A stretch of DNA of 59,526 nt from a virus: positions 1-59,526 of IMG/VR virus record IMGVR_UViG_3300025168_000093. One strand, 5' to 3'. Under the pieces are notes generated by a model. It saw only the letters and a program-made list of their open reading frames with translations. It did no database searches and had not been told where the DNA came from. The position numbers were made by a program, and so were the translations under genes. Below are positions 266 to 41,000 of this stretch, one piece after another; the first letter of the stretch is position 1; every line of letters starts with the position of its first letter.

Positions 266-453
266 ACTCCTTCAACCAAGCGATGTTTCTAATGAATCAT
301 TATTCTTTCTATACAATATATTAATAATAATATAATAATATAATATCTATATGAATAATAGAATAATTGTAATAATAGGTTATTTTTACCTAGAGCCGCT
401 AGGGTAAGGTTTAATGTGACCTCTATAGTGGCGTAGTGTGGGGAGACAGTAAG
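266..453 (+). promoter_or_regulatory. AT-rich intergenic gap, probable promoter region of the late operon
   Basis: This 188-base gap is the largest gene-free stretch here. Its first part (about 305-375) is a low-complexity run of TAATAA/ATAATA units offering several TATA-like boxes. An imperfect inverted repeat (TTACCTAG at 386-393 against CTAGGGTAA at 399-407, one bulged G) follows and could be an operator or a hairpin. All downstream genes are co-directional, so this is the natural place for a promoter driving the cluster. Function is inferred from composition and position only. Confidence 0.45.
386..407. repeat. Imperfect inverted repeat, possible operator
   Basis: Arms TTACCTAG and CTAGGGTAA flank a five-base centre AGCCG, with one extra G in the right arm. 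It lies about 50 bases before the first gene of the cluster, after the AT-rich promoter-like run. It could bind a dimeric regulator such as the AbrB-like protein encoded at 2152-2349, which is speculation. Confidence 0.35.
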
Positions 454-1107
454 ATGGATTACAATAGAGACGGACAAATTGACTCATCAGAATTGAGATT
501 GACAGGATTGATTTTAGCGCAATCAGCGTTAATAGGAACAGCAGTAGGAGTATTTGACTCAGGAATTTGGCTACCAGCAGGTAGTGGTAGTCATACAGTA
601 AACGGTATGACATATGCTATGGGTGCCTTGGCGGTACAAATCTTGGCTTATTATCTATTTAAGATGTTCTTTGAAAGAAGCATGAAAGATAGAGTAAGTA
701 CACAAAACCTTCAGAGAGATAAAGAAATAAGAATGAGAGATATTCAAAATTCTCACGAACAAAGAAGAATAGATATGGAACTTAGAGTACAAGAAATGCA
801 GTTAGAGCGCGAAATGATGATGTTTAGACAAAATCCTGAACTTTTTATGCATTCTGCTGAAACTATTACAGTGCCGGTGCCACCTAGACCAACAAATACC
901 CCGCCTAATAACGGGACTATGAGTTTAGGTTTAGACCAACTACATCAAAGTTCTATCCCTTATGTGGCACCTAGAGTAACTAATAACATAAATCACGTAC
1001 AGGCACAAGTAGATGCTATGGCGGATGATTTGGTACTTCAACAACAGAATGTTCGTCTTAAAAAAGACGGAACACCTGACATGCGATATTATAATGGAAA
1101 GAATTAA
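454..1107 (+). CDS. Membrane coiled-coil protein with N-terminal EF-hand-like loop
   Basis: A 217-residue protein of unknown family. Residues 2-13 read as a canonical 12-residue EF-hand/dockerin calcium loop: D2, N4, D6, G7, I9, D10 and E13 all sit at the expected positions. Two hydrophobic helices follow (about 17-34 and 52-72). Then comes a highly charged stretch with no proline, probably coiled coil (about 77-125), and a Pro/Asn-rich tail. ATG 454 is preferred over the upstream in-frame GTG 436 because GGGGAG at 439-444 is suitably spaced. It is followed by another membrane protein and a small GTPase, which suggests a shared membrane-linked role. The calcium binding is inferred from the loop pattern; a single isolated loop can be coincidental. 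Confidence 0.75.
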   Translation: MDYNRDGQIDSSELRLTGLILAQSALIGTAVGVFDSGIWLPAGSGSHTVNGMTYAMGALAVQILAYYLFKMFFERSMKDRVSTQNLQRDKEIRMRDIQNSHEQRRIDMELRVQEMQLEREMMMFRQNPELFMHSAETITVPVPPRPTNTPPNNGTMSLGLDQLHQSSIPYVAPRVTNNINHVQAQVDAMADDLVLQQQNVRLKKDGTPDMRYYNGKN

Positions 1108-1134: not shown

Positions 1135-1392
1135 ATGGGCCGTATATTCAAGACCCCAAAAGATGACTCGGTTGAAGAAACTTTGAGGGCTATGCATCTC
1201 GCTAATACATTTGATAATCATTACGAATGGGGTATCGGTTGGATAAGAACCCTAATTGTGGGCGCTCTTATGGCTTTTTCAGTGAGTGCTATAGAAGCAA
1301 ACAGTACGTTGAGTCTTTGGGAACTGACGGTAGAATGGTTTTATGCAAAGGTAGAAAATTTTGCAAATTGGTTAATTAATTTAGTAAGTTGA
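1135..1392 (+). CDS. Small single-pass membrane protein
   Basis: An 85-residue protein with a polar N-terminus and one clear transmembrane helix at about residues 37-53 (WIRTLIVGALMAFSVSA). A second amphipathic, Trp/Phe-rich segment lies near the C-terminus. GAGGG precedes the ATG with normal spacing. It sits between the EF-hand membrane protein and the GTPase, with short gaps on both sides, so it is probably co-transcribed and could be a membrane anchor or partner for the GTPase. A holin-like role cannot be excluded from topology alone. No family recognised. Confidence 0.7.
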   Translation: MGRIFKTPKDDSVEETLRAMHLANTFDNHYEWGIGWIRTLIVGALMAFSVSAIEANSTLSLWELTVEWFYAKVENFANWLINLVS

Positions 1393-1402
1393 GGGATTTC
1401 TC

Positions 1403-2116
1403 ATGAGTATGACTGGTAGCGTATTAGTAGGTGCTGCCATTTGGGGACAAAATATATACAATTCTTGGAGACCTAGGAAAATTGGCATCTATGGTTCAAC
1501 CATGGTAGGTAAGACTACTCTTGATAGGTACATGACAACACCGGGAGAAATGGAAGATATACCTGATGAAGAGAGAACTCAACATTTCAAGTTATTAACT
1601 AAATATCTTTTACCAAAACCCACACGTAAAAGAATCACTTGGGAGGGTCAGAAGAGATTAGTCCATTCAGCAGATATAGGCGGTGAGCAAAAATATTGGA
1701 ATCTATGGGTCGAAGACATGGTGACAAGACAATGTGAAGCAGTTGTCTATATGTTTGATGACCGAGCCTTTAAAGGTGGAAAAGAAAGTTTAGACCAAAT
1801 AGCAGGTTTTACTTATCTAGTGGATGTTTTAACTACAAAAAATTGGAGATACCGTAATTTAAGGTCTAGGTGGAGAGGAAGAAAATATTCCCCTAAAATC
1901 ATTATGCTTGTGGCTAATAAGGCAGATAGGTACTTCGATAATGATGCAGCATTACTATGGCCGCAGGGTAGAATAGGCGAACATAAAATTTTCGACCCTT
2001 TCAGAGATGACCTAATAAGACTACAAAAAGCAGGGCTTAGAAGTAAGCGTTCTTTCATGGCTACAAGGATAGGTTGGAACGTAGAACCCACCTTCATAGA
2101 ACTATTGACCTCTTGA
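1403..2116 (+). CDS. Arf/Ras-like small GTPase
   Basis: A 237-residue P-loop GTPase. The motifs are in order and correctly spaced: G1 G31-STMVGK-T38, a switch I candidate Thr after Pro at 73-74, G3 D91-IGGE, G4 N172-KAD175 and a G5-like A220-T221. The G3 stretch DIGGEQKYWNLW closely resembles the Arf-family DVGGQ..I..LW pattern. Glu95 stands where Arf and Ras proteins have the catalytic Gln, so intrinsic GTP hydrolysis may be slow or altered. Residues 1-20 form a hydrophobic/amphipathic segment that could contact a membrane. GAGGGA at 1391-1396 precedes ATG 1403. Such GTPases are very unusual in viruses; they are common in eukaryotes and Asgard archaea, with MglA-type relatives in bacteria. 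Neighbouring membrane proteins suggest a membrane-associated task. The family call is strong; the role is unknown. Confidence 0.85.
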   Translation: MSMTGSVLVGAAIWGQNIYNSWRPRKIGIYGSTMVGKTTLDRYMTTPGEMEDIPDEERTQHFKLLTKYLLPKPTRKRITWEGQKRLVHSADIGGEQKYWNLWVEDMVTRQCEAVVYMFDDRAFKGGKESLDQIAGFTYLVDVLTTKNWRYRNLRSRWRGRKYSPKIIMLVANKADRYFDNDAALLWPQGRIGEHKIFDPFRDDLIRLQKAGLRSKRSFMATRIGWNVEPTFIELLTS

Positions 2117-2151: not shown

Positions 2152-2349
2152 ATGGCTAAGACAATAATGACAACCGCTTTGGTACACACAGGCGGAGGTT
2201 CTAGTAGTCTTAGAACGACTGTGCCGATGTGGATTGTAGAGCAATTTAATCTAAAATCAGGAGAAAAACTAGTATGGAAGGTCGCATCGGATGATTCTGG
2301 GGAGTTATTCATTAAGGTAAAGCCACGAGGTGTCTCCAATGGTACTTGA
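2152..2349 (+). CDS. AbrB/SpoVT-like swapped-hairpin DNA-binding protein
   Basis: A 65-residue protein whose core, SSLRTTVPMWIVEQFNLKSG followed by EKLVWKV and a short beta hairpin, matches the AbrB/MazE/SpoVT swapped-hairpin fold (pattern S-x-R-x-T-V-P ... L-x-x-G-x-x-L-x-W). The LRTTVP form is typical of archaeal members. These proteins bind DNA as dimers and act as transition-state or antitoxin-type regulators. No toxin gene is adjacent, so a transcriptional role in the virus is more likely. It overlaps the next gene by 11 bases. Confidence 0.8.
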   Translation: MAKTIMTTALVHTGGGSSSLRTTVPMWIVEQFNLKSGEKLVWKVASDDSGELFIKVKPRGVSNGT

Positions 2350-3325
2350 TATACCTGATAATATGTATCGGACTATGACCGGTCAACCTATACAACCAAC
2401 ACAATCATTAGGTCAATTAAGTGAATCAGCAATGGTTGCTTTATCCCATCAAGGTAATCCGCAATTCAATCAAGCGGCAATAATGGAACAAGCAATGGCT
2501 CAACAACAGATGATGATGATGGCTCAACAAAAAAATCTAGAAGTACCAAAAGTTAATTTTTATCCTTCAACTCATATAGACCCGCGTAAAGCCCGAAGAC
2601 AAGATATTAAGCAAGCATATAGATTATTGTCACCAGCGAAGAGATTTTGGTTAAGCCCTGCTAGATTATTTGGGCGCAAATATCGTTATAATAAAGAATC
2701 TTCACATTGTGTGATTGATGGTTGCGATTGTGCTGAATTGATTAAACATGATAATTTATATTCTAGAATAACTGATGATGAGTCAGGTAGAAGTCTTTGG
2801 GAAATGTATTGGAATAATCCTATCACTGGGCAAACCGAAGCATTCTTGGCACAAGACAAAGTTACATCCGGTCGAAGAATGAAAGGGACTTATTGCCCTG
2901 AACATCTTCATCTTTATCATCTCTTATGTAAATGGGAAGATGAACAAGAAAGAGAAGATGAATTGAGTCCTTCAAGGTTCAGAGATAAAATGAGAAAAGG
3001 CGTTAGTTTAGTTACCGTACCTGTTGCAGCCATAACTGGTAAACAAGAACCTTTACACCCTATGGTGACTAAATATGAACATTTTTTCACTGAAATAGAA
3101 AAAGATGCAATACAAAGTAAAGGCATTAATGTATGGCACATACCGAACCCTGACTCAGGAAATAATGATATCACTATGATTCAATTCGATATGAGAATGT
3201 TCCAAAAAGAAATTTTAGAAGCATCAATGCCAACACCAGCATTTCAGAGTTTCTTGAACCAACAACCGCCCCAACAAGTTCAAACTAATATACCCCCTCC
3301 GCTACAACAGGAGATTATACAATGA
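2339..3325 (+). CDS. Unknown protein with Cys/His cluster and Q/M-rich N-terminus
   Basis: A 328-residue protein. Residues 1-65 are Gln/Met-rich and probably disordered. A central region has C124, C129, C131 and then C186-PEH-LHLYHLLC197, a possible zinc site. The C-terminus is Pro/Gln-rich. ATG 2339 is chosen because GAGGTG at 2327-2332 is ideally spaced, whereas the in-frame GTG 2330 lies inside that site. It overlaps AbrB upstream and shares ATGA with the next gene, so translation is coupled. No family recognised; a virion or assembly role is only suggested by context. Confidence 0.75.
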   Translation: MVLDIPDNMYRTMTGQPIQPTQSLGQLSESAMVALSHQGNPQFNQAAIMEQAMAQQQMMMMAQQKNLEVPKVNFYPSTHIDPRKARRQDIKQAYRLLSPAKRFWLSPARLFGRKYRYNKESSHCVIDGCDCAELIKHDNLYSRITDDESGRSLWEMYWNNPITGQTEAFLAQDKVTSGRRMKGTYCPEHLHLYHLLCKWEDEQEREDELSPSRFRDKMRKGVSLVTVPVAAITGKQEPLHPMVTKYEHFFTEIEKDAIQSKGINVWHIPNPDSGNNDITMIQFDMRMFQKEILEASMPTPAFQSFLNQQPPQQVQTNIPPPLQQEIIQ

Positions 3326-3933
3326 CTCTAGGATTAAGTAACACAAATACAAATACATCAGGATTAAGTTTAGGTGCACAACAAGGATATGGTGCACAAC
3401 AAGGATATGGTGCACAACAAACACCTAACACATTTATGAATAATATGATGGGCAGCGCTGGTGCTAACCAATATTATCAACAACCTGTAGCACCACCTTC
3501 AGAAACTGAAATTTTATCTGCTATGTTAGGTACAATAAAACCTATAGAAAAATTTATGATATCACAAAATATGCCTGTATTCATAGAAATGATGTCTAAT
3601 ATATCTGCATTCTCTTTACTCAATGTGTTAAAAAACTGTAGTTTTAAAATAGATGACGAAGGAGTTATGAAATTAGATGTAATGTCGCTACCTTCAGACT
3701 TACAAACTCTAAGTGCTGAAAATATTATAGCACAATTGAACACATTACAAAACGTATCACAACAAGCAGTAACAAATGCCATGCAAGAACGAGACAGAAT
3801 TATCGGACTTTCACAACAATCTCTTCTACAAGGAGCACTAGGTGCAGCATTACAAGACCAAACTTTCTTAGAAAACGCTGGTAATGCCACCGGAGGATTT
3901 TTGAGAAGTGCATTCGGGCTACGCCCGCAATAA
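3322..3933 (+). CDS. Unknown protein with GAQQGY repeats
   Basis: A 203-residue protein. Residues 18-35 contain direct GAQQGY repeats encoded by an 18-base tandem repeat. The remainder is probably alpha-helical (about 55-175), ending in a Gly/Ala-rich segment and FGLRPQ. The ATG overlaps the previous stop (ATGA), indicating coupled translation. No catalytic motif or known domain is seen. The low-complexity leader followed by a helical body is common among virion-associated or scaffold-like proteins, but this is weak inference. Confidence 0.7.
   Translation: MTLGLSNTNTNTSGLSLGAQQGYGAQQGYGAQQTPNTFMNNMMGSAGANQYYQQPVAPPSETEILSAMLGTIKPIEKFMISQNMPVFIEMMSNISAFSLLNVLKNCSFKIDDEGVMKLDVMSLPSDLQTLSAENIIAQLNTLQNVSQQAVTNAMQERDRIIGLSQQSLLQGALGAALQDQTFLENAGNATGGFLRSAFGLRPQ
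3373..3420 (+). repeat. 18-bp tandem repeat, about 2.7 copies
   Basis: The 18-base unit GGTGCACAACAAGGATAT occurs twice in full and once in part, in frame, encoding GAQQGY units near the N-terminus of the 203-residue protein. Confidence 0.9.
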
Positions 3934-3949
3934 ATAGCGAGATGATATA

Positions 3950-4207
3950 ATGAATAATAGACCAAATACACCAATGGGTTTTGTCCCTAGACCAGTAGCC
4001 GAAATGACTATGCAAATGATGTCTCCAAAAAGAAGCGTTATTATTGATATGGTGATGATACAATTCATCAGTGCTATAATATTAGGATTAGGCGTTCTTA
4101 TGTTTAAAGGTGGAGATTTAACAGCCTCTGAAACTTCCACATATATGATTGGTGTCTTTGTTGCTTTTCTTTTATTAACTAGCATATATGCAAGAATTAC
4201 CCAATAG
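3950..4207 (+). CDS. Small two-helix membrane protein
   Basis: An 85-residue protein with a polar N-terminus and two transmembrane helices (about residues 30-51, VIIDMVMIQFISAIILGLGVL, and 64-81, TYMIGVFVAFLLLTSIYA) joined by a short loop. Size and topology would suit a holin or another small viral membrane protein, but no lysis enzyme is visible nearby, so the call stays general. It follows the preceding gene after a 16-base gap. Confidence 0.7.
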   Translation: MNNRPNTPMGFVPRPVAEMTMQMMSPKRSVIIDMVMIQFISAIILGLGVLMFKGGDLTASETSTYMIGVFVAFLLLTSIYARITQ

Positions 4208-9645: not shown

Positions 9646-10327
9646 TGTTTACGTCCTTAAAAAAAATGCAAGTATGAACGTGACACCGAGTGGTGCGCCT
9701 AGTCTGCAAGTAAATCTTGGTGGAGAAGGTAAAAAAATCAATTATTCTGATATGAGTCCAGCGGCTGCAAATTGGGGTAGAGGGGCTAGATATGCTGCTG
9801 CTATTCCGGCTGCTTGGTCAGCGTTGTCTACTTTAGCAGGTGATGGTCGAGAAGATTTATTCACTACTTTAGGTCAAGCGGGGCTTTCTGCATCAGCAAC
9901 GCACAATATTGCTAGAAGTGCATTAGAACCCGCCGCTGCAAGATTTGGAGAGAGAAGAAATTTTAAAAATAATCCTAGCCATTACAAAGATGGAAAATAC
10001 GTTGGACCACCATCGCCGCTACCTACACCACCACCGCCGCAAAATAGTTCCGGCACAACTCCTATTGCTTTACCTCAAGGGAATAGCGAATTGACGAATT
10101 ACACAAGTCAACCAATAAAAATGATAGAAAAGCCTGATGGTTCTTTCGGATATCCTTCTACGGATAACATGAATCAAGAGGCTGTTAAACAAAGTAGTTT
10201 GTTGCAAAATAACCCTGTTTTACCTCCACCTAAAGGTGCTACTAATCAAAATAATGAGGACCCTTTTCAGACTTCTATGAACGTCATGGACCAATCTAGA
10301 AGGAATATGAACAATAGTAACGGGTAG
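9638..10327 (+). CDS. Unknown Pro/Asn-rich protein
   Basis: A 229-residue protein. Residues 40-100 are Ala-rich and helical (AARYAAAIPAAWSALSTLAG-like), possibly membrane- or capsid-interacting. The rest is Pro/Asn/Ser-rich and probably disordered, with a PLPTPPPPQ run. It starts inside the end of the 777-residue gene with AGGGGTAA-type purines upstream. Its TAG stop touches the GTG/ATG start region of TerL. Function unknown. Confidence 0.6.
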   Translation: MSSVYVLKKNASMNVTPSGAPSLQVNLGGEGKKINYSDMSPAAANWGRGARYAAAIPAAWSALSTLAGDGREDLFTTLGQAGLSASATHNIARSALEPAAARFGERRNFKNNPSHYKDGKYVGPPSPLPTPPPPQNSSGTTPIALPQGNSELTNYTSQPIKMIEKPDGSFGYPSTDNMNQEAVKQSSLLQNNPVLPPPKGATNQNNEDPFQTSMNVMDQSRRNMNNSNG

Positions 10328-10335
10328 TGACCATC

Positions 10336-11811
10336 ATGGCAACAGATGATATGAAAGATTTCGTCCTAGAAATGGACAGAAAAATGTCTGAAAAGTCTTT
10401 TCATTATTTTTTTACAGATGTTCTAGGTTTTTTATACAATCATCATCATGAATCTTGGAAAGAAGGTTTAGAAGAATCTCAATACTATTGTGTTAAGGCT
10501 TCACGTGACCATGGAAAATCTGTATTTTTTATGTCGTATGCTTTATGGTTAGCAGCATTTAATCCTAATACACACATCATGATTTTCTCTCACTCTTTGG
10601 AGCAAACACTAGAGCATATGAGATTTATTAAGGGTAATATAGAAAGTACAGAAATGTTAAGAGATTTAGTACCTAAAGGTAGACCATGGGCTAAATCGTA
10701 TTTTGAATTTTCTAATGGTTCTCGTATTATGGCTAAATCGGTTGGGGGTGCAACACGTGGTTTCCATCCTGACGTAGTTGTGTGTGATGATATTCTTTGG
10801 GGTACTAGCGGTACTGAACTATCAAAAACTGCTGATTGGTTCTATGGTGTTTTGTTGCCAGTTCTTCATCACACTTCAAGACTGATGATGGTGGGTACAC
10901 CATTTAGTTACAATGATTTATATGCTGATTTGGAAAAGAAAGAAACATTCAGAGTAGAAACATATCCAGCCATTGATAGAGAAGGGGTCGCTATGTGGCC
11001 TGAACGTTGGAACTTGGAAGCACTACAACAAAGAAGATTATCTATGCCTGCTATACAATTTTCACGTGAGTATTTATGTGAACCAATTCATGACGTTGCA
11101 AGTATGTTCCCTATGGATATTTTAGAATTAGCAAGAGACCCTGAATTAAAATTAATGGATAGAGCAGAAACTGGTTACAATGAAGATGGAGAGCCGGATG
11201 GCGTATGGGGTCAGCACTTCATAGGTCACGACCCTGCTATATCTTCTGATAAGAATGCAGACTTTACAGCGATGATTGTTATGAGAATGTTACCGAATGA
11301 ACCGATAAAGCAATTGATACACGTTGTGCACGAAAGAGGAATGTCTTCTTTGGCACAGAAGAGAATGATGGTTATGCTTAACAGTAGATTTCAGCCCGAT
11401 TTAATAGAACTTGAAGGGAACAATTTTCAGCGTATGTTAGAAGCAGAGATGCGTGAAATGTCAGCAGATATGCCTATTAGAATTTTTATGACCACACGGA
11501 CAAAAAAAGAATCACTTTTCATGTCTCTTCTATTAGCCTTTGAACAAGGATATATCAAAACTCCATATGGAGATAAGAAATCACAAGAATTCACACATCA
11601 GTTGGAAGAACAATTAAATCGTTTTGGTATGCAAAAGAATGGACGTTTGGAATCCGTTGGTGTACATGACGATTTAGCCATGGGGCTTGCTTTGGCTAAT
11701 TGGGCAACTAAAGAATTCAAAGGTTCGGTTATACTTTTAGACGATGTAATGGAGAACTTCGATGGGTGGTTTGATGGGAATGCTAAAAGCCGAGGTTGGA
11801 TGGTGCCATGA
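10336..11811 (+). CDS. terL: Terminase large subunit (ATPase and nuclease)
   Basis: A 491-residue DNA-packaging motor that translocates viral DNA through the portal and cuts it. The ATPase half has Walker A K54-ASRDHGKS62, Walker B VVVCDD at 147-152 and the coupling motif VGTP near 186-189. The RNase H-like nuclease half has D299 in GHDPAISSDKNAD, acidic residues near 358-360 (ELEGNN) and D445-D446 in VHDDLAMGLALA. All expected motifs are present and the length is normal, so it should be active; no intein interrupts it. ATG 10336 is chosen; GTG 10327, overlapping the previous TAG, is an alternative. The RDHGKS variant of Walker A is familiar from archaeal tailed viruses and related marine phages. 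The portal gene follows after the LAGLIDADG gene. Confidence 0.95.
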   Translation: MATDDMKDFVLEMDRKMSEKSFHYFFTDVLGFLYNHHHESWKEGLEESQYYCVKASRDHGKSVFFMSYALWLAAFNPNTHIMIFSHSLEQTLEHMRFIKGNIESTEMLRDLVPKGRPWAKSYFEFSNGSRIMAKSVGGATRGFHPDVVVCDDILWGTSGTELSKTADWFYGVLLPVLHHTSRLMMVGTPFSYNDLYADLEKKETFRVETYPAIDREGVAMWPERWNLEALQQRRLSMPAIQFSREYLCEPIHDVASMFPMDILELARDPELKLMDRAETGYNEDGEPDGVWGQHFIGHDPAISSDKNADFTAMIVMRMLPNEPIKQLIHVVHERGMSSLAQKRMMVMLNSRFQPDLIELEGNNFQRMLEAEMREMSADMPIRIFMTTRTKKESLFMSLLLAFEQGYIKTPYGDKKSQEFTHQLEEQLNRFGMQKNGRLESVGVHDDLAMGLALANWATKEFKGSVILLDDVMENFDGWFDGNAKSRGWMVP

Positions 11812-11814
11812 GGG

Positions 11815-11910
11815 ATGAAGATGAAAGAGAACGACGAAAAAGATAATTTTTATGATAACACCACTTATATTGCTAACGAATATAACCTAAATAGAACTAA
11901 GTGGAATTGA
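11815..11910 (+). CDS. Possible 31-residue ORF between TerL and the LAGLIDADG gene
   Basis: An ATG at 11815, just after the TerL stop, opens a 31-codon frame (MKMKENDEKDNFYDNTTYIA...) ending at TGA 11908-11910, immediately before the next start at 11916. Composition is Asn/Asp/Lys-rich without a recognisable motif. A GAGGGA upstream is too close to act as a normal ribosome site. It fills an otherwise empty 100-base gap, which is mild support only. Confidence 0.25.
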   Translation: MKMKENDEKDNFYDNTTYIANEYNLNRTKWN

Positions 11911-11915
11911 TATTA

Positions 11916-13067
11916 ATGAATGATTTATTCTCTTCAACTGGTGAAGGTTGGTTTGAATCTCATTTAGGTTGTAGTGCTAACGACATAGTAAAGAGATTAA
12001 GAAAATCTAGAAGAATAAATAAATTTCAAAAACATGACATAGATGATATCATAAATGATGTAAGGACTATAAAAGCCTTAGAATTTGATAAAACTTTAGA
12101 TATGCATGGATGGATAAACAAAGAAGATTTTGCTAAAACTATACGCTCTTTTGGTCCGAGTGCTAAAGACCTCAAAGCGCTTAGGAAATTTGGTGATTCA
12201 AGACAAGTGAATTTAATTCGCGCTTGTAATCAATGGGAGCAAGCCAATAACATAGTTAAGATGTTAGGGGAACACGAAGGGGTTTGGGGGCAAGAAGAAA
12301 AAGATTCATGGGTTAAAGCAATGGACGAAAAAAAAAGTGCAAAATTAATTTGGAAGAACACTTTGCATCAAATGGATAGACTTACAGAAAAAGAAACTAT
12401 AGCACTAAAAAAAAGTGCAGAAGTTTTAGAATTTAAAGGACCCATGAGTGGTAGAAGTTTGTTTGAAAATCTTTATGAGAAAAAGATTTTACACAAAAGT
12501 ATGACTCCTATGAAACTTTCAAAACTGATTAGTATGTATGGGGAAGAGGTAGATATTATCGACGGTGCTACAAGGTCTACTTTTGTAAAAATGAATTCAC
12601 ACGGTTTAATTTTGAAAGACCCTTATGCTTATGCTAGTGGTTTTTTGGACGCTGATGGATATATCAGCATCACAGGACGTGGAGAACCAAGATGTGGTTT
12701 CATCGCTACAGGTACTAGAGGTAGAGCCCATTGTGAACATTTACAAAAAACTCTTGATTGTGGTATATTACAACTCGACCAAAAAATATACAAAGACGGC
12801 CAAAGGTCCCAACATAGATTACAATTCTATTCCAAGAACGATATTAGAAAGTTACTAACTGCTTTATTACCTCATTTACAAATGAAGAAAACACAGGCCA
12901 AAGCAGTGCTTGCTTATATTGATGAAGGGGATTCAATGCGTAAAGAAGAACTTAAAAAATTAGTTAAATATAGCAATTGGTCGGACGATACATCAAAAGC
13001 CGATTCGCTTCTCGCCGAATGGGGAGTAGACAGAGACGCTGTGAATAAGTGGACGGAGGGATTGTAA
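11916..13067 (+). CDS. LAGLIDADG homing-endonuclease-like protein with unknown N-terminal domain
   Basis: A 383-residue protein. The C-terminal third contains one LAGLIDADG motif, ASGFLDADGYI at 240-250, with acidic D247 placed for metal binding. It is followed by the usual alpha-beta pattern (SQHRLQFYSKNDIRKLLTALLPHLQMKKTQA). One motif means it would act as a dimer. The first 230 residues are helical, unrelated to the endonuclease fold, and unrecognised. ATG 11916 is preferred to GTG 11901. The stop overlaps the portal start (TAATG), so it is embedded in the packaging operon as a free-standing gene rather than an intein. It may be mobile, or it may have been recruited for a packaging or regulatory role. 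Confidence 0.8.
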   Translation: MNDLFSSTGEGWFESHLGCSANDIVKRLRKSRRINKFQKHDIDDIINDVRTIKALEFDKTLDMHGWINKEDFAKTIRSFGPSAKDLKALRKFGDSRQVNLIRACNQWEQANNIVKMLGEHEGVWGQEEKDSWVKAMDEKKSAKLIWKNTLHQMDRLTEKETIALKKSAEVLEFKGPMSGRSLFENLYEKKILHKSMTPMKLSKLISMYGEEVDIIDGATRSTFVKMNSHGLILKDPYAYASGFLDADGYISITGRGEPRCGFIATGTRGRAHCEHLQKTLDCGILQLDQKIYKDGQRSQHRLQFYSKNDIRKLLTALLPHLQMKKTQAKAVLAYIDEGDSMRKEELKKLVKYSNWSDDTSKADSLLAEWGVDRDAVNKWTEGL

Positions 13068-21757: not shown

Positions 21758-23131
21758 GTGCTTACCGCAGAGCGATTATACGGACATGATGAGTCCATCT
21801 CCATCCTTAAGGCAGGGAGCGACCTCATCATTGCTGGATATGCCAGTGTGGAACTAGTAGACAAACAAGGCGATTTAATAACAAGGGAGGCATTGAAGGA
21901 CGGATTTCGGAAATTTATGAGTGACCCGAAATATAGAAATGTCCAGTTAGCCCACAGTAATATTCAAGTTGGAGAAGTAGTACCTACATATACAGATACA
22001 GAAGGGAGGTTGTGGAAAAGCGAAGTTGATGATGTCGGAATGTTTGTTGTTATACAACTTAGAGACGACATCGAAAAATCACGAGAAGTAGCCGCCGAAA
22101 TTCGGAAAGGCAAATTACGAGGGTTTAGTATTGGAGGACAAGCATTCAAGCGAGTTAGAAAATCTGACCCAAAACATGGAGATTACCAAGAGATAAGTAA
22201 ATTGGAACTACATGAGATAACAATATGTGAAAAAGGTATCAACCCGGAAGCAACATTTAGAATTCTAAAACAGGAAACTGATTCAGAAAAAAATATAAAA
22301 AATAAGGTGACAAAAATGACAGAAACAGATGTAACAACGCAACTTGGCGATGTACTTGCACGCTTAGAAGGCCGATTAGACAGCATGGAGAAAGGAATGC
22401 CTCCTGCACTAAAAGAAGCCATCGAAGCAAAGAAAGACAAAGCCGATGATAAGAAAGACGACGAAAAGAAGTCGGAAGAAGTAGAAAAATCAGAATACTC
22501 TGATGTAATCACTTCTGAATATCTAGATTGGATGGAATCAACACTAAAATCATCAGGTGTTGATATAGACGGTGCTAGAGACCACTTCGATGACCTTAAC
22601 AAGGCGAACTTAGGTTCTTCGCCCGATAAACTAGACTTAGAATACGGTCAGACAAAGAACAGGGAGCAAGAAAATGGTAAACCATCAACTAATGCAATAT
22701 CCCGTACTACCGGTTCAGGTGGAAAAGCAAAGAAAGAAGTTAAGAAATCTGACTTCTTATCTCCAACAGGAGTTTCTGAATCTGATATAGAAGCAGCATA
22801 TGAAGTATACAAGGCTGCATCATTAGAACAAGAATTCCGAGGTTCATTAGAATCTAACTTTGCTTCACGTTACGCTTCAGAGCGTCAATCAGAAGTTGCT
22901 AAAGCAGAAGCAGCAGCATATGATGCACGTGGACCTTTAGATGACATAACAAAAGCAATCACTGCACTTTCAGAGCGCATTGATTCTATTACTACACCTA
23001 ACACAGAAGGTACTACTTTAGCAAAATCTGCTCCAGTACCTGCATTAGAAATTCCTTCAACTGCTGACATGCACAAAATGTCTTGGGACGAAGTACATCA
23101 AATGGCTGACACAGCGTTTAGAGGGGAGTGA
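21758..23131 (+). CDS. Prohead protease fused to scaffolding domain
   Basis: A 457-residue protein. Residues 1-170 are an HK97/XkdF-type prohead serine protease: GYASVELVDKQGDLI, catalytic His66 in AHSN, catalytic Ser124 in RGFSIGG, and the closing LHEITICEKGINPEA. Residues 187-457 are charged, helical and scaffold-like, ending in MHKMSWDEVHQMADTAFRGE. The protease would cleave scaffold and capsid-protein arms during maturation. Protease and scaffold are fused, and an internal ribosome site at 22304-22310 with in-frame ATG 22316 would give the scaffold alone. GTG 21758 has no evident ribosome site. It is followed directly by the capsid gene, as in HK97-like viruses. Confidence 0.9.
   Translation: MLTAERLYGHDESISILKAGSDLIIAGYASVELVDKQGDLITREALKDGFRKFMSDPKYRNVQLAHSNIQVGEVVPTYTDTEGRLWKSEVDDVGMFVVIQLRDDIEKSREVAAEIRKGKLRGFSIGGQAFKRVRKSDPKHGDYQEISKLELHEITICEKGINPEATFRILKQETDSEKNIKNKVTKMTETDVTTQLGDVLARLEGRLDSMEKGMPPALKEAIEAKKDKADDKKDDEKKSEEVEKSEYSDVITSEYLDWMESTLKSSGVDIDGARDHFDDLNKANLGSSPDKLDLEYGQTKNREQENGKPSTNAISRTTGSGGKAKKEVKKSDFLSPTGVSESDIEAAYEVYKAASLEQEFRGSLESNFASRYASERQSEVAKAEAAAYDARGPLDDITKAITALSERIDSITTPNTEGTTLAKSAPVPALEIPSTADMHKMSWDEVHQMADTAFRGE
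22304..22318 (+). promoter_or_regulatory. Internal ribosome-binding site and start for scaffold
   Basis: AAGGTGA at 22304-22310 lies five bases before an in-frame ATG (22316), exactly where the protease domain ends and the scaffold begins (Met187). It matches the GGTGA sites used by other genes in this window. It would give a free 271-residue scaffold, as nested scaffold genes do in lambda-like viruses. Confidence 0.6.
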
Positions 23132-23136
23132 ATAAT

Positions 23137-24270
23137 ATGGCAAGAGATTACGTACGAACAATAACAGATATGGAAAGATACTACTATGGTGCAGGTAACG
23201 CAATGGGTTACTCATACTCCGGTAGTGAACTACTGAAAGCAGACAGCCCTATGATGTCAACAACCGCTGGTACTTACCAAGCGATTTACGGCAGAAAGGT
23301 TTGGTCACAATTAAATCAAGAATTTAACGCTTTCTCAATACTACCTAAGAAACCTTGGGATAGAAGCGGATGGCGTGTTATTACTGGAAAGCCAAATGGT
23401 GGAGCACTTCATGGCGGAGTTGCAGAAAACGCAACACTACCTGAGACAGTAAAACCTACTTTCCAGCATGTTGCTGCTAAACCAAAGACTATCGCACACA
23501 CATTCGATATGTCTGAGACAGCAATTTTCCTAGCAGACCGTGACGATGGAATGGGCGATATACGCTCAGTTCTTAAAGAAGAAATGGGTAAGCACCACGC
23601 AGAAATGGTTAACAAAATGTTACTAACTGATGTGAGCACTGCTGCTGCAAACAACTTTGAGTCATTAGACCGAATTACTACAGGTAATACAAACATGGTA
23701 TCAGGTACTCACTACGATGCAGGCGATGAAGACATCTACTCAATCGACCGAAGTAGCAACACATGGTCCTTTGCTGAAGATAACGCAGATGGAAGCAGTG
23801 TTAACAGAACACTGTCACTAGACCACCTAGATACTCTTTTCCAACAAATTTGGGAACGTGGTGGAAATCCAAAAGTTATTCTAACAGGATATGACACTTT
23901 GATGAGACTACAACAACTATTGCAGTCACAACAAAGATTCATGGAAGAGAAGAGAGTTACCCCAACATACAATGGAGTAAAGGGTGTACCCGGCATAGAG
24001 GCTGGTTTCATCGTTGCTACATACAATGGAGTACCAATCATCCCTACCAAAGATATGCCCGATGACGGTGCTATTAGTAGAATGTATTTCTTAGATACTG
24101 ATTACATGCACTTCAGCACAGCAATTCCAACACAATACTTTGAGAGCGGTATCGAAACAGGAGACCCTTTCGCAATTAACAGATTAGGCCAAGAAGGACT
24201 ATACCGAACCATGGGTGAAGTATGGACTACTTTCTTTGGTGCTCAAGGTTCAGTGAGGGACCTAAAATAA
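23137..24270 (+). CDS. Major capsid protein, HK97 fold
   Basis: A 377-residue capsid protein placed directly after protease/scaffold. The N-terminal 40-60 residues are helical and could be the cleaved delta/N-arm. The rest shows HK97-type features: an E-loop-like segment (RVITGKPNGGALHGGVAENATLPET region), the spine helix with LKEEMGKHHAEMVNKMLL, and a C-terminal A-domain core with PKVILTGYDTLMRLQQLL and the GVPIIPTKDMP strand. ATG 23137 follows GGGGAGTGA; GTG 23128 overlaps the protease stop and is less likely. Codons ending in C (TAC, AAC, TTC) are more frequent than in neighbours, as expected for a very highly expressed protein. Confidence 0.88.
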   Translation: MARDYVRTITDMERYYYGAGNAMGYSYSGSELLKADSPMMSTTAGTYQAIYGRKVWSQLNQEFNAFSILPKKPWDRSGWRVITGKPNGGALHGGVAENATLPETVKPTFQHVAAKPKTIAHTFDMSETAIFLADRDDGMGDIRSVLKEEMGKHHAEMVNKMLLTDVSTAAANNFESLDRITTGNTNMVSGTHYDAGDEDIYSIDRSSNTWSFAEDNADGSSVNRTLSLDHLDTLFQQIWERGGNPKVILTGYDTLMRLQQLLQSQQRFMEEKRVTPTYNGVKGVPGIEAGFIVATYNGVPIIPTKDMPDDGAISRMYFLDTDYMHFSTAIPTQYFESGIETGDPFAINRLGQEGLYRTMGEVWTTFFGAQGSVRDLK

Positions 24271-33900: not shown

Positions 33901-35063
33901 GTACAGGTACGCCCATTCGTTTGGTTAGAGAAGACGGAAAATTAATTTCATTAAATGCAACTGAAATTGCTTTAACCACAGAAAGAAAGTTTGGTCCAAT
34001 GGCTCTACCCGGTTATGGTAGTCAAAGAGTTGCCATAGATTTGAATATAAACAAAGCAGAAATACGCATTGATGGATTTTTCACTGATGATACTGTACCA
34101 ATAGGGGGTGCTTTTGCATATGCTACAATTAATTTTTTAGAGGCAAAAACAACCGATTCAACACAAAGTTATGTTGTAATAGAAGGACACGGAGGTGCCT
34201 CTTTTTCTTCATCGTGGAATCTTAACAAAATGTTTACAGCAACTACTACTATCTTATTTAAATCTACCAATGGTACTTTAGATGCAATTTTATTATATGA
34301 AGTCTCAGGTAGCACCGCTACTGCATACGATAGTAGTAATACAAGAGTCAACATAAACCCTTCAACTGCTACTGCTACTCAAATAGCAACGGCTGTGAAA
34401 GATTATATCAATGCTCAATTATCTGCTAGATATGCTGCTTCTACTTATGATATAGGTTCTTTATCTAGTGGTGTTAATGCTGGTGTTTTAATTACGAATA
34501 CTGTTATGGGTGCAGGCGGTAATAATAAATCAACTCCTACATTTCAAGGAAACCAAGATAAAGGTTTTTTAATACCTATGATAGAGACTTTCAACGGTGG
34601 TTCTACTGCTGTACAACAATCTGCTGGCGATAAGGCTCAAGATTTGTATTCAATAGCAAATAATAGTAGTAAATCTTTATGGGCTGAATATGATAAGGCA
34701 AACCCCTTTAATAAAATAGCGGATGCTATTGTAAATTGGATTGGCAGTACGGCGCCCGTTAGGGCTGGTGGTCAATCGGACTATATCATAGGTATACAAA
34801 TACCATTTAATTCAAAAATCAACGCTGGTGGTAATGAATATGTTGCAAAAAATTTCTTCATGCCTACGGGTTTAGAGCATATGCTGAAAAGCCCTAACAA
34901 GAAAAATTCTTTTGTAGCCAAAAGTGCTGGTACCACCTTTAACGCATGGAATGATTTCACTGGTATACAAGGTGGTTTAAAAAGCCTAGATATAATTTAT
35001 AATGCTGGTGAAGCAATTTATAATTTTACAATGGTGTTCTTACCAGCAGATACTGTATTCTAA
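33897..35063 (+). CDS. Tail-tip (distal tail-like) protein with inserted beta domain
   Basis: A 388-residue protein. The N-terminal 65 residues and the C-terminal part (about 290-388) look like one beta-rich tail-tip domain: AEIRIDGFFTDDTVP, then QSDYIIGIQIPFNSKI and YVAKNFFMPTGLEHML. They are split by an insertion (about 95-240) with the recurrent viral module ILFKSTNGTLDAILLYEVSG ... TQIATAVKDYIN, also seen in the adaptor. Position directly before the giant tail gene suits a distal tail or hub adaptor. Exact family not recognised. Confidence 0.5.
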   Translation: MSTGTPIRLVREDGKLISLNATEIALTTERKFGPMALPGYGSQRVAIDLNINKAEIRIDGFFTDDTVPIGGAFAYATINFLEAKTTDSTQSYVVIEGHGGASFSSSWNLNKMFTATTTILFKSTNGTLDAILLYEVSGSTATAYDSSNTRVNINPSTATATQIATAVKDYINAQLSARYAASTYDIGSLSSGVNAGVLITNTVMGAGGNNKSTPTFQGNQDKGFLIPMIETFNGGSTAVQQSAGDKAQDLYSIANNSSKSLWAEYDKANPFNKIADAIVNWIGSTAPVRAGGQSDYIIGIQIPFNSKINAGGNEYVAKNFFMPTGLEHMLKSPNKKNSFVAKSAGTTFNAWNDFTGIQGGLKSLDIIYNAGEAIYNFTMVFLPADTVF

Positions 35064-35076
35064 ATTGGTGATTAAT

Positions 35077-38000
35077 GTGACAGTAATCGGTAATACCAAT
35101 AAGGCTTTTTTCTTTAATGGTGTTACTGATAGTATAATAATACCTCAAGGTAGTTTTAGTAGAGTTGGTAGAGCAACACCCGAAGGCCAATATGACGTAA
35201 GGGGTATTCTTAATCCATCAGGTAAAGGTGGCGACTCATCTATTACATCGGGTAAATTTGGAGCGGAAATTACAATAGAGGCTTGGGTTATGCCTGACCA
35301 AGGTGGAGTTGTTTTAGAAAAAGAAGGCTTGGTCCATCTAAAAGTTGGAGAAATACATGAAGCAGCACCTATAGAATTCAAAATATTCTTACATAACGGT
35401 GTATCTTTAGAACAACATACAATATCCACCGGGGACTATAATGGCACAAGATATGTTGGAAACATATACCCTTTAAGCACCTTGAATGGTATGCATGACA
35501 AAAATGATACCGATTTAAATAGAAATCATAGACCTTTGATGCAAGTAGTAGCATCATATAATTCCGGTAAAATTCAAATTTATGTTAATGGGGTTTTGAT
35601 GGCAGAAAAAACATTACCTAATGCTGAATACCGCATACCGGATAATCAAGATAATCTATATGTTGGTGGTAAGGGCGGGAAATTTCGTGGAATTATTGAA
35701 GCGTTACACATATCAAGAGGATTTGATGAATCTATATTTAATCGCATTGCTCCTATAAAAAACGATAATACTCTCTTGTTATATAGATTTGAAGAACCTA
35801 TCTCAACTTTTGATGATGTATATACAACGGACGCATCTGCGTCTTCAGGTGCAACAGAAGTAAGCACTAGCGTGGCTAATGCTACTGCTATAGCCACTAA
35901 ACTTCTAGGTACTAGTGTCACTAGTGGCACAGTAACTTTCACCGATTCTCCTTACAGTAGCGGCAATTACAAAGTTATCCAAAGCACATCAACAGGTACT
36001 ACATCTCACGATGTTCCACATGTGCCTTATAATCTTCTAATGAACCCTAGTGGTGTTGATAGATTAACAAAGAAACCATCGAATAAACCACCTGAAAGAC
36101 TGAGAATACAAAGTATCAATCTCACCAATGGAAATATTGAAGTCAAGAGTATACATTTAGATTTCAGTGTTGATAATAACGGACAAAGAGGTACATTACA
36201 TGCATACGACAGTGGCTCTGAGTTCATTTTGATTGGAGCAGATTTACTAATAGATTCGTTAGGTAATCCCTATCAACCCCCTCACTATTCTTCTAGAGTA
36301 ATAGATAGAACAGGTCAGATGGTAATAGATGAAGGACCATTAGAACAACACGGATTTGTATATTCTTCCAATATGGCCGATAGTGCTACAGATACTGATA
36401 ATCCTTATGCTGTAACATGGCCTACTGCTATAAATCAAGCAATGAAAATTGGACATTCGGGTAGACATACCTTAAACCACGTAGAAGGACATCCGTATTT
36501 GAGACAATTACCTCCCGCTGATAGAGAAATAGTTCAAATGAAATCAGATGGTGCTGCTGATATTGTTAATTTATTTTATGAAAATTCTTTCGATGGTATA
36601 GAAAATCAAATAAAAACTAATTCCGAAGTTGATTATTATAGAAAAACCGGCACTTATGGGATAAATAGAGTTGTTAATACCGCTAGTGCCAATGTGATTT
36701 TCAATAATTATAATGCGGTAGGCAGTTCAGCCAACACAAGTCGTAAAATGATAGCAATAGGGGGAGCAGGGTTTGATGTAACTCCTTTCTTTTTGAAAGC
36801 ACCAATTCTAGAAAAGGGTATGGATTGTGATGGTAAAATGCGTACTCATCACATTAGACCTAGTAAAGAAAGTAGAGTCGCTTTATTGAATATCCCTACT
36901 TTGGCTAGTAGTTATGCTATGGCGCCTTATGTAGAAGTACATTACAATGCTATAGATTTAACAGGGGAAAGTATGACTGCCGCCGTTGCAGCCGGCTCAT
37001 TTTCCACTGGTGTAAAATATATCATAGTGTCTTCAGGTAACACAGATTTCATTGCTATAGGTGCTGCTGAAGATAAGGTAGGAGTTTCCTTTACGGCCAC
37101 TGGCTCAGGTTCAGGCACTGGAACTGCTAGACCTTATCAACCAATGTTGATGGTAGAAAAAACAGTTCCTTCAGGAGATACTCAAATAACCCATAATGAC
37201 ACATCTACTACAATATATCAATTAATAGCATCCTCTATTAGTAGCGGTTTAACCTTATATGCGCCCGGAGGTTATATAGATATCAACAGCAGTGATGTAG
37301 CAGTAGCACAAGATTTCTTTAATCCTCATTCTTTATCAGGAGACAATAGCGAAGGTTATGATGCTGATTTAACTATTGATGATAGTCTTTCTGTTGCTAA
37401 TTATGCCGCTTATACTGTGGATTCTAACGAAAATAAAACACCTGTAATAATAGAAGATTCGACTCATACCACAACAAATCATAAATCCATATTTAGTAAA
37501 ATGATTATAGAAACAGTGGACTCAGAGAAAGATATGGTTGATTTTTCTGATTATAGTAGAAGAGATGTTGTCTCTACTGGGAGTGCTTCAGGGGAACCTG
37601 ATGTTTCTATAACATCTTCTTATTCACCAATATATGAAACATTTGACATTATAGATAATGTAGAAATAAATACGGTAGATAGCGACACAAGAATAATACT
37701 TCAACCTTCAGATAGAAAAAGAATAAATCAATTGTTTTATCTTCAAGATAATCTAAATACCAAAGAAGCGACTAATGTAGCATCTTTACATTATTTGTTG
37801 TCGCGTGCTAAAGTTAAATCTGTGGAAAAAAGCAATAACGATAACGGCGGTAATTATACCAAAATAGAATGTTGGGGTATACAAACCAATGTGTCAAGCA
37901 AAAATGCTAGTGTCATCGGGTCTGGTAGCCCTGATTCTCATGTGGTTAAAGAAATAGAGCCAAATGCTCCTGTGGTTAGTGTTACTCTAGGTGGACCGGG

Positions 38001-41000
38001 ACAAGGCGGAGTTGACACTAAACCTACATTCTCAAAGAGTCCTTTTAGCCATGCTCCTTTTTCTTCAAGAAGAGCCTATGCGGTGTCCACTACATCCATG
38101 GTTTACGATAATTTATCTAGTGATTTTAAATTAAATGTGCAACCCATAAACAACCAATCAACCGATATGAAAAGTTGGGGAACTTTTGGTTTTCCAAAGA
38201 TAGGTAGAGTGTATTTCTCCGATGGTAGTAGCGCAAAATATGATAGTAAGGGTGGTAATCAATTTACTTTTGGAGTAGCGACAGCCGGTGATGGAGATTA
38301 CCTTACTAGTGAAGGTGTAGAATTTTTACACATTTTACCCTTGTTGAAAGCAATAGGTGTAACAAATAATCAAGCAACGGGTGTAACAGGAACCTTTGCC
38401 CTGAATGTAACGCTATATAGCGAACCCGATATAGAGGGAGCGTCAATTGAAAACGGTACTAATGTCAATGATAGAATGTTCCAAGCAATGAGCGATGTTA
38501 CACATGATTACCAATTAAGCACACAATACGCTAGCACAAGGGCTTTGGTGGAAATTCCATTCTTTTCAAATCAATTCTTTGATAATAAAAACCAAGGAAC
38601 TTTTATTGGCCCCGATAATGCATTTAAAATTCATTTAGATGGAACCAATACAGCACACACATACAATCCTAGTCCTGTAGGCAGAAGACCAATAGATGTC
38701 ATTCCGGCAGATAGAGAAGCGCAATCGGCATATTCCATACCTATAGATGAGAAAAAATTCAAGAAATCTTCTAGAATAATTAAATGGGATTCTTCTAACA
38801 ATCGTTTGTATGTTAAGGATGCATCAGTATATCCTGTACCATCTGCTTCCGGTGCCTACAAAAATCTAACATCTGTACCTAGGTTTAGAAGGGTGTTTTT
38901 GTCTAGTGGGGAATGGGCTTTGTATAGTGCAGTCAATACATCTGATAATTATTTAACAGTGCCAACTGCTAGTTATCGTTTCTCTACTGGGTTCTTAGGA
39001 GAAGTCAGGCAATCCGACAATTTACCTTTGTATGTAGGTGGTCCTTTACCTAATGAAGTCATAGATGCAATATCCTCAGATGCCTATACACCCTCTTCTG
39101 ACTTTGAAGATAGGGGTGAATATTATTATGACCAAGCGAGTGCGCTGACTCAGGGTGGGAATGTTGACTACGGATTACGGCAGTATGTCAGCGCTGTTTC
39201 TTTCAGAGGTGGTCCCGAAACCAATCCGAATGCTCCTCGTATTCAGACCAAAAGAGCGAGTGGTACAATTCTGGGCATCACAGAAGAAGCGACTTCTAAC
39301 GGTGGGTATACAGTCTTGGTTTCATTATCTGAAGAAGACTTCAATCAGTTTCCTAATCTTGGTTGCCGCGATACTGATACTGCGAGTATAGGTGCAATAG
39401 GCGGCGTGCTTTACGAAGCAATTGTAAATTATATACACCCTTCTACGGGTGTTGGTACAGATTATGTTTTTCATTACTATGGACCCTTAGATACTATCAG
39501 CGCATCATCTGTTACTGTGCCTAATTCGGCTATAGTTTTGGCTCATTATCAAAACGCCGCTTATCCTGTAGATGGAAGCGGGGACAATACACTTTGGGGC
39601 ACTCTTGTTGGTTCTACTATTACTGTAACTAAAAAGACTAGAAGAGTCATGTTCGATGAATATTTATCGGGTTTGACTGCTGGTGCTACACCTAAATTAG
39701 CAGATGGTTCTACACTTCGCACTTTCGCAACAACCAATCCCCTCTATAGAGAATTGATAAATAACATACATTTTGGTGCTGTGTATGCTTCACACAGTAG
39801 CGGAGAAATAATAGTTTCAGGAACAAACTCTTTACAAGATTTATTTGATTTTAATTTAAGAATAGGGGATAAGGTATTTTACAAATATAACAATTCAGGC
39901 ACATACACAATAGGTTATTTGGGCGAAGTTACAAAATTCATAGCCCATGCCAATGGTTTGAAGTTTGTTGTGGCTGTTACACCTGCAAGCGATGTTAACA
40001 CACAACTTACTGCTGGAAGCAATGCTGAAATTGGGGTGTTGGTGAATGATTACACAGATGCTGACGCTATACTCAATTCAACATGGTTGAACCCATATGC
40101 ACCGGGTGGTTTCCGCAATGGAGATACTGTGTGGGCTAATATGTCTTACAATAACCCACACGCAGTTGAGGGATTATTTGCTAAGAGTAGAGGTGTGTAT
40201 AATGACGGAGAAGTGTGGACTGAGTTCAACGAAGGTGAAGGAAACTTAGCGGCTAGTAATCCTAGAGACAGTATACCTCTAGAAAACTTCTTGATAGGGG
40301 ATAATTGTCTTGAAACTGCTAGAAATTATGCACAACATGTGAATAAAACGATAGAAGAAAATTACAAGGCTTTGGGTTTAGCAGCAACCGATGCACCCAC
40401 TATTGCTTATGTTGACCCTTACATGGCTACAGAAGACGAAGCAAGAGTTCTGCTGTATGATGTTGCACACGATAGAGAGTTTATTGCATTTCAAGATATA
40501 CACATGCAAGTACAATCTTCAGCAGATACTACGCACATAGGTTGGAAGAGAGATATTGTAGAAGGTACTGCTACTACTATGACAGATTTAGCCACGAGGT
40601 TACCTGCGATTAATGGTGCTGCTCCACACGCATGGGCTACTCAAATAGATGTAGCAAATGGTTATCCTTCGCAAAATCCTTTGATTCGTGCTACACAACA
40701 ATCGAGATTTATGGAGTCTGCTTATGCACACGATTTGGCTAATAGACAAAGCGACGACTTAACAGGCACAACTGTGTATTCTAACACTGCACAGCAGAAT
40801 AATTACACCAAATTGTATGGAAAAGCACACGGACACTTTGTGCATACAGGCCATAGTATTGCAGGTAATGCTTCTAAGTTTGCACATTCAATGAGTAATC
40901 CTTGGAGAAACAACGAAAGTGTTGCTAACAGTAATGTTGCTGCTACATATCATAAGTTGTCTAGGAGGACTAATGGAAATTTCTTAGATAATTTGATGAA

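Follow-up and report, generated by a model that had tools for sequence, protein, structure and literature searches.

Eukaryotic cells are characterised by membrane-shaping small GTPases, and such proteins are now turning up in archaea as well. An open reading frame near one end of a 59,526-nucleotide stretch of viral DNA (IMG/VR record IMGVR_UViG_3300025168_000093; hereafter, the window) raises the question of whether a tailed virus of prokaryotes also encodes such a protein and, if so, where the gene came from and what the virus might use it for. The frame (positions 1403..2116, + strand) opens with an ATG and encodes 237 amino acids, which an initial annotation described as an Arf/Ras-like small GTPase. 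Along the protein, which we class as a small, Arf-leaning member of the Ras superfamily, an N-terminal helix (residues 3-22) is followed by a P-loop (GSTMVGKT, 31-38), a switch I with the triplet ERT (T59), a PT pair (73-74), a switch II (DIGGE, 91-95), an NKAD motif (172-175), and a G5-like MATR motif (219-222), the last of which was absent from the motifs listed in the initial annotation. When the window protein alone was compared with Pfam, however, its GTPase matches were sub-threshold (Roc, E=0.005; MMR_HSR1, E=0.26), and the claim therefore needed to be tested with relatives.

Relatives were gathered from IMG/VR with successively wider profiles, the set growing from 19 close contigs to 126, 203, and then 486, such that profile scans place a GTPase relative on at least 486 contigs. 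A second, distant clade (clade 2; L276, L277), about 30-32% identical to the window protein, was uncovered by running the profile on a MAG with one of the earlier contigs, and at least 188 IMG/VR contigs carry a GTPase of this clade; the window protein itself belongs to clade 1. No relative was found by tblastn in 50,697 phage records, and no PHROGs family matched the GTPase, in agreement with the expectation that such a protein is uncommon among tailed viruses in general. In an alignment of 183 distinct sequences from both clades (66 from clade 2), the G, G, K, and T of the G1 P-loop (GxxxxGKT, a form of GxxxxGK[ST]), D91 and G94 of G3 (DxxG), and N172, K173, and D175 of G4 (NKxD, guanine specificity) were unchanged in 183/183 sequences, and the G5-like motif takes the form MAT[RK] in clade-1 proteins, with VSAK at the corresponding position of clade-2 proteins. 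The dN/dS ratio of the GTPase was 0.025-0.09 in six pairs, indicating strong purifying selection, and its conservation was 60-79% as compared to 71-86% for the terminase. A chance match to GTPase motifs is ruled out by the conservation of the motifs in the 183 sequences together with the dN/dS values, and we are highly confident that the product is a small GTPase and that it is encoded by a core gene of its virus group.

While all four motifs quoted in the initial annotation (GSTMVGKT, PT, DIGGE, and NKAD) are present in order in the translation, the PT pair is not the best candidate for G2. The threonine of an 'RT' pair ('ERT' in the window; T59) is invariant (183/183) and lies 24 residues ahead of the G3 Asp in 65/66 clade-2 members, a spacing that is also found in Asgard ArvA-like GTPases, while T74, at the 'PT' position, is T or S across the family; judged from these sequence patterns, T59 rather than T74 is therefore probably the switch-I threonine. 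Clade-1 members have an insert between T59 and beta-2. The suggestion that Glu95, which stands in place of the catalytic Gln, might lock or slow the switch did not survive comparison with relatives. Residue 95 is Q in 59, E in 43, D in 13, and H in 2 clade-1 sequences and is E in 66/66 clade-2 sequences, and a Fitch parsimony reconstruction infers Glu as the root state and 9 subsequent changes. Since all four residues occur and Glu is fixed in clade 2, Glu95 is a common state of the family, and this variation, the clade-2 fixation, and the ancestral Glu rule out a special locked switch.

Comparisons beyond the viral family placed the fold more firmly than the subfamily. Among 28 diverse clade-1 members, 24 matched Roc (best E=5.8e-4) and 23 matched NCBIfam small_GTP (best E=1.4e-4), with every match under the curated cut-offs, so that assignment to a named Pfam or NCBIfam subfamily was rejected; a PDB sequence search gave no useful match. 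An AlphaFold2 model from 48 sequences (pLDDT 77, pTM 0.77), which replaced an earlier, poor model from 16 close sequences (pLDDT 66), returned a small-GTPase fold and not some other fold, with the antiparallel beta-2/beta-3 arrangement found in the model and by Foldseek. A Foldseek search of the PDB with this model gave 420 matches at E<=1e-3, and the top 50 were small GTPases only, with a probability of 1.00. Target-normalised TM-scores were modest (~0.5-0.6), which we attribute to the long switch-I insert and to model error; the fold class is therefore clear and the detail of the model inaccurate. Motifs, predicted fold, and Foldseek matches thus jointly bear out the presence of a Ras-superfamily GTPase in a tailed virus.

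With regard to family, profile-profile comparison with cellular groups built from Asgard genomes only ranked an Arf-like group with an N-terminal domain at the top (99.2%, E=9e-20), followed by Asgard Arf (98.7%, 2e-16) and an unnamed DCPGD group (98.3%), and lower down by Rag (97.0%), Ras (96.2%), and ArvA-like proteins (95.1%, over 73 of 237 columns), where the E-values refer to a database of one and are usable for ranking only. The Arf family (PF00025), including the top-ranked Asgard group (L430-L436, L445), is also the family with which the viral protein shares a helix ahead of beta-1 and a nearly identical switch II of the form D-x-G-G-Q/E-x-x-[FYW]-W-x-L-W (Asgard DMGGQRNFWSLW vs. viral DIGGQERFWNLW); in clade 1, this stretch reads DxGG[QEDH], then [FY]W[NS]LW. 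On the other hand, the PF00025 cut-off is not reached (the window protein is unlisted, and the best clade-1 member has E=0.12), the viral GTPase lacks Gly2 for myristoylation and the Asgard N-terminal domain, it has a long switch-I insert, and its residue 95 is not fixed as Gln. As for an Arf-type N-terminal amphipathic helix, helix 3-22 is predicted, Gly2 is absent, and amphipathicity is moderate. With the Asgard Arf-like profiles outscoring those of Rag, Ras, and ArvA-like proteins, an Arf-leaning character, as proposed in the initial annotation, was upheld, and the affinity of the viral GTPases is likely Arf-like rather than Ras-like. The Asgard group that is the closest cellular profile match found (L430-L436, L445) itself has a conserved N-terminal domain of ~110 residues with a CxxC pair (IRTLECxxC...HxDHxRIxYFD..G.YLGD).

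Several other GTPase systems share individual features with the viral protein. In Haloferax, vesicle formation is driven by ArvA, an Arf-like GTPase whose N-terminal helix is amphipathic; its deletion leads to fewer and its overexpression to more extracellular vesicles, and a Zn-ribbon protein of its operon has been proposed as its GAP (PMC10927574). The viral P-loop resembles the G-[IL]-Y-G-x-x-x-x-GKTTL-type P-loop of ArvA/OapA, the T-to-Asp spacing of 24 recurs in viral clade 2, both proteins have an N-terminal helix, and ArvA, which is archaeal and membrane-related, likewise has a Zn protein encoded nearby. The ArvA switch II, however, is D-M-P-G as compared to the viral D-x-G-G; neither OapB (ArvB, PF09846) nor OapC (ArvC, PF09845, a Zn ribbon) was found among the scanned window genes or clade-2 neighbours, although an Asgard ArvA-like operon used as a control matches both; and ArvA-like proteins are the weakest profile match among the six groups. 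Switch II, neighbours, and profile thus exclude an ArvA orthologue. ArvA-like genes were found in 68/228 Asgard genomes at E<=1e-8 (L527-L530), one of them (L530) adjoining OapB and OapC homologues, and have been reported in 8/183 Asgard genomes under a different criterion (PMC10927574). Ras, Rab, and Rho proteins have the same fold, Rac, Rho, and Rab being the best Foldseek matches, and viral clade 2 has a Ras-like SAK G5; yet their profile similarity lies below that of Arf, the viral proteins have DxGG instead of DTAG, and the window protein, which ends in IELLTS, lacks a C-terminal Cys prenylation motif. SRPRB (PF09439), the beta subunit of the signal recognition particle receptor, is likewise a small GTPase with an N-terminal membrane segment and gave sub-threshold matches in 4/5 clade-2 proteins scanned (best E=0.0022), but its neighbours are not alike and the viral gene has a late-gene setting. 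Among viral proteins, the best fold matches are Ras/Rab-type GTPases of giant viruses (Solivirus, Homavirus, Catovirus, and others; BFVD); these infect eukaryotes, whereas the gene described here belongs to the core set of tailed viruses that infect prokaryotes, and no close relative of it was found in cells. No roadblock (MglB) match, as expected of an MglA-type partner, occurred in the scanned neighbours of the viral GTPase.

The viruses that carry the gene share a number of features. Large contigs with the GTPase are mostly 80-115 kb; PolB is present in 24/26 of them and in 15/15 clade-2 contigs, where it is split into two frames in 14/15, with a single part found in the other. A chaperonin (Cpn60) gene occurs in 30/30 contigs tested, and the capsid protein of the window is ~33% identical to those of haloviruses HVTV-1 and HCTV-1. 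Halovirus kinship, a split PolB, and GroEL are also given in the ICTV profile of Aoguangviridae (PMC10768690). By their features, namely size (90-115 kb), PolB, chaperonin, and halovirus-like HK97 capsid protein, the carriers look like magrovirus-like (Magrovirales) tailed viruses, with Poseidoniales (Marine Group II archaea) as their predicted hosts. One contig (G262, which holds L307; 184,733 bases) carries the chaperonin gene twice and likewise two sets of split PolB, ~90 kb apart, which suggests that a ~90-kb genome was assembled in doubled or concatemeric form. No homologous GTPase was found in the haloviruses with related capsids (the HVTV-1 55-95 kb stretch and vir519). Of the terminase loci with sufficient upstream DNA, 45/45 have the GTPase gene, as do 217/217 loci that combine the Zn-protein gene described below with enough flank. 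The gene is thus better seen as part of the core set of an entire virus group, with a Zn-protein gene conserved beside it, than as an isolated capture.

Capture from an archaeal host was among the possibilities raised in the initial annotation. Across 196 Asgard genomes, no close cellular relative was found except on one viral-looking contig, and the sole Asgard match of full-length similarity lies on a contig of 8 kb that has the gene order of these viruses; a recent Asgard origin was thus not borne out. The matches in MAGs labelled Maricaulis (L101, L276, L277; G027) and Asgard group archaeon (L102; G028) are on short contigs with a magrovirus-like gene order, which makes them likely mis-binned viral DNA. 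Recent capture from an Asgard host was rejected on the same grounds, as the Asgard MAG match (L102) is such a contig.

The genes around the GTPase form a conserved block. In 83 clade-1 loci, the order is an EF-hand/TM protein, a small TM protein, the GTPase, an AbrB-like protein, a Zn protein, a 203-aa protein, a 2-TM protein, an HTH protein, and then other genes as far as the terminase. In the window, where the genes given with coordinates below lie on the + strand, the block opens with a membrane protein (436..1107) with 1-2 hydrophobic segments, a charged helix, and an EF-hand-like loop near its N-terminus (EF-hand_5, E=2.7e-4, below cut-off), kept in 80/83 loci; the loop, DYNRDGQIDSSEL, stands ahead of a hydrophobic segment, and such a protein could be calcium-sensitive. 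It is followed directly upstream of the GTPase by an 85-aa protein (1135..1392; 82/83 loci) with one hydrophobic segment (34-52). Downstream, a 65-aa AbrB/MazE-like protein (2152..2349; MazE_antitoxin, E=9e-4, below cut-off), whose gene is missing from the corresponding place in clade 2, lies between the GTPase and the gene for a putative Zn-binding protein of 331 aa (2330..3325), which has a CCCH set (C127/C132/C189/H192) and matches no Pfam or NCBIfam entry and no known GAP family. Next come a 203-aa helical protein (3322..3933) and an 85-aa protein with two transmembrane segments (3950..4207), each conserved in 83/83 loci. The terminase large subunit (10327..11811; phrog_38, 5.9e-60), downstream of the block, starts the packaging and head genes, and the prohead protease and HK97-fold major capsid protein, the latter related to HVTV-1/HCTV-1, occupy 21758..24270.

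In clade 2, the block is located elsewhere, between the capsid gene, which lies ~3 kb upstream, and the head-completion and tail genes; a 2-TM and a 1-TM gene again precede the GTPase, and the Zn gene follows it. Both clades thus have two small membrane-protein genes before the GTPase and a Zn-protein gene after it. In cross-clade hhalign comparisons, the GTPases matched at 99.8% and the Zn proteins at 95.1%, the Zn protein being the only neighbour with detectable homology across both clades; the CCCH set is found in both (C74/C77/C109/H112 in L288). No homology between the membrane proteins of the two clades was detected by hhalign, and clade 2 has, at the place of the 203-aa protein, a protein of similar length, the likeness being one of position and length. 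The N-terminal helix of the GTPase is hydrophobic enough for a membrane segment in 56/66 clade-2 members; in clade 1, it is only moderately hydrophobic, with a max KD of 0.84 in the window protein, which is under the membrane-segment level.

The constant presence of the gene, its near-terminase conservation, and its location among late genes point to a part in virion production or release and speak against an optional host-takeover gene, while the membrane proteins encoded alongside and the helix at the N-terminus indicate a membrane site, which makes membrane action of the GTPase plausible. We thus propose, while giving the proposal about an even chance of being correct, that the protein acts late in infection as a membrane-docked GTP switch, together with a Zn-protein partner of its own, in virion assembly or release. 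It would be made at a late stage and be held at the host membrane by the hydrophobic helix at its N-terminus, by the membrane proteins encoded next to it, or by both. The Zn protein would control its switching between the GTP- and GDP-bound forms, and the GTP-bound form would recruit or reshape membrane-bound complexes that virion assembly or release requires. The replacement of the catalytic Gln by Glu would be an ordinary variant within this family, compatible with slow intrinsic hydrolysis and partner control. Gene linkage and the ArvA precedent suggest the Zn protein as a possible regulator; a GAP-like role for it is a guess.

Other readings account for part of the same evidence. The GTPase could be a capsid or neck assembly factor, packaged in or acting on procapsids, with the membrane proteins as unrelated late neighbours, e.g., lysis proteins. 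Its location amid structural genes in either clade (in clade 2, between those for capsid and tail) and its nearly terminase-like conservation fit such a factor, but two small membrane-protein genes directly precede it in both clades and its N-terminal helix is hydrophobic; moreover, we are aware of no small GTPase that assists the assembly of HK97-type capsids, and we regard this reading as unlikely. Host-takeover genes are mostly early and variable, whereas this gene is invariant in presence and located with late genes, and the lack of close cellular relatives in the 196 Asgard genomes, the viral-looking contig apart, also counts against a role in which the protein would imitate, or compete with, one of the host's own small GTPases for vesicles, polarity, or division and thereby redirect the membranes of the host. 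We consider such host manipulation rather improbable, even though the protein leans towards Arf, its P-loop and switch-I spacing resemble those of ArvA, and archaeal hosts make vesicles with small GTPases (PMC10927574). Finally, the Q/E/D/H variation at residue 95, with its 9 inferred changes, might mean that hydrolysis is dispensable and that the protein is a pseudo-GTPase, i.e., a nucleotide-binding structural switch. As the P-loop Lys and Thr, T59, D91, and NKxD are all invariant in the 183 sequences, and several active GTPases do without the Gln, this seems very unlikely.

A bolder form of the membrane-docked switch proposal, which we would offer as a doubtful extension only, is that viruses of the magrovirus-like group encode an Arf-like system of their own for remodelling membranes. 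Comprising a docked GTPase, a Zn regulator, and small membrane proteins, it would deform or open the envelope of the host cell so that virions can be assembled or released, and it would be the first in a prokaryotic tailed virus. A literature search that did not include the main papers (Philosof 2017, Prabhu 2025) found no report joining magroviruses and a GTPase, and a prior mention is possible. A fixed core GTPase in very abundant marine archaeal viruses would mean that a GTP switch has been kept in their basic machinery over long evolution; the gene block provides a concrete, testable set for how magroviruses assemble at or leave the host, and the viral GTPases may represent a deep, virus-borne Arf-like branch that bears on how the Arf family began. 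Elsewhere in the window, a candidate HNH/LAGLIDADG-like homing endonuclease (11901-13067; phrog_5046, E=2.8e-7) lies between the terminase and portal genes, and a single 5,537-aa open reading frame (35002-51615) that follows tail-like genes probably encodes a giant adhesin or tail protein.
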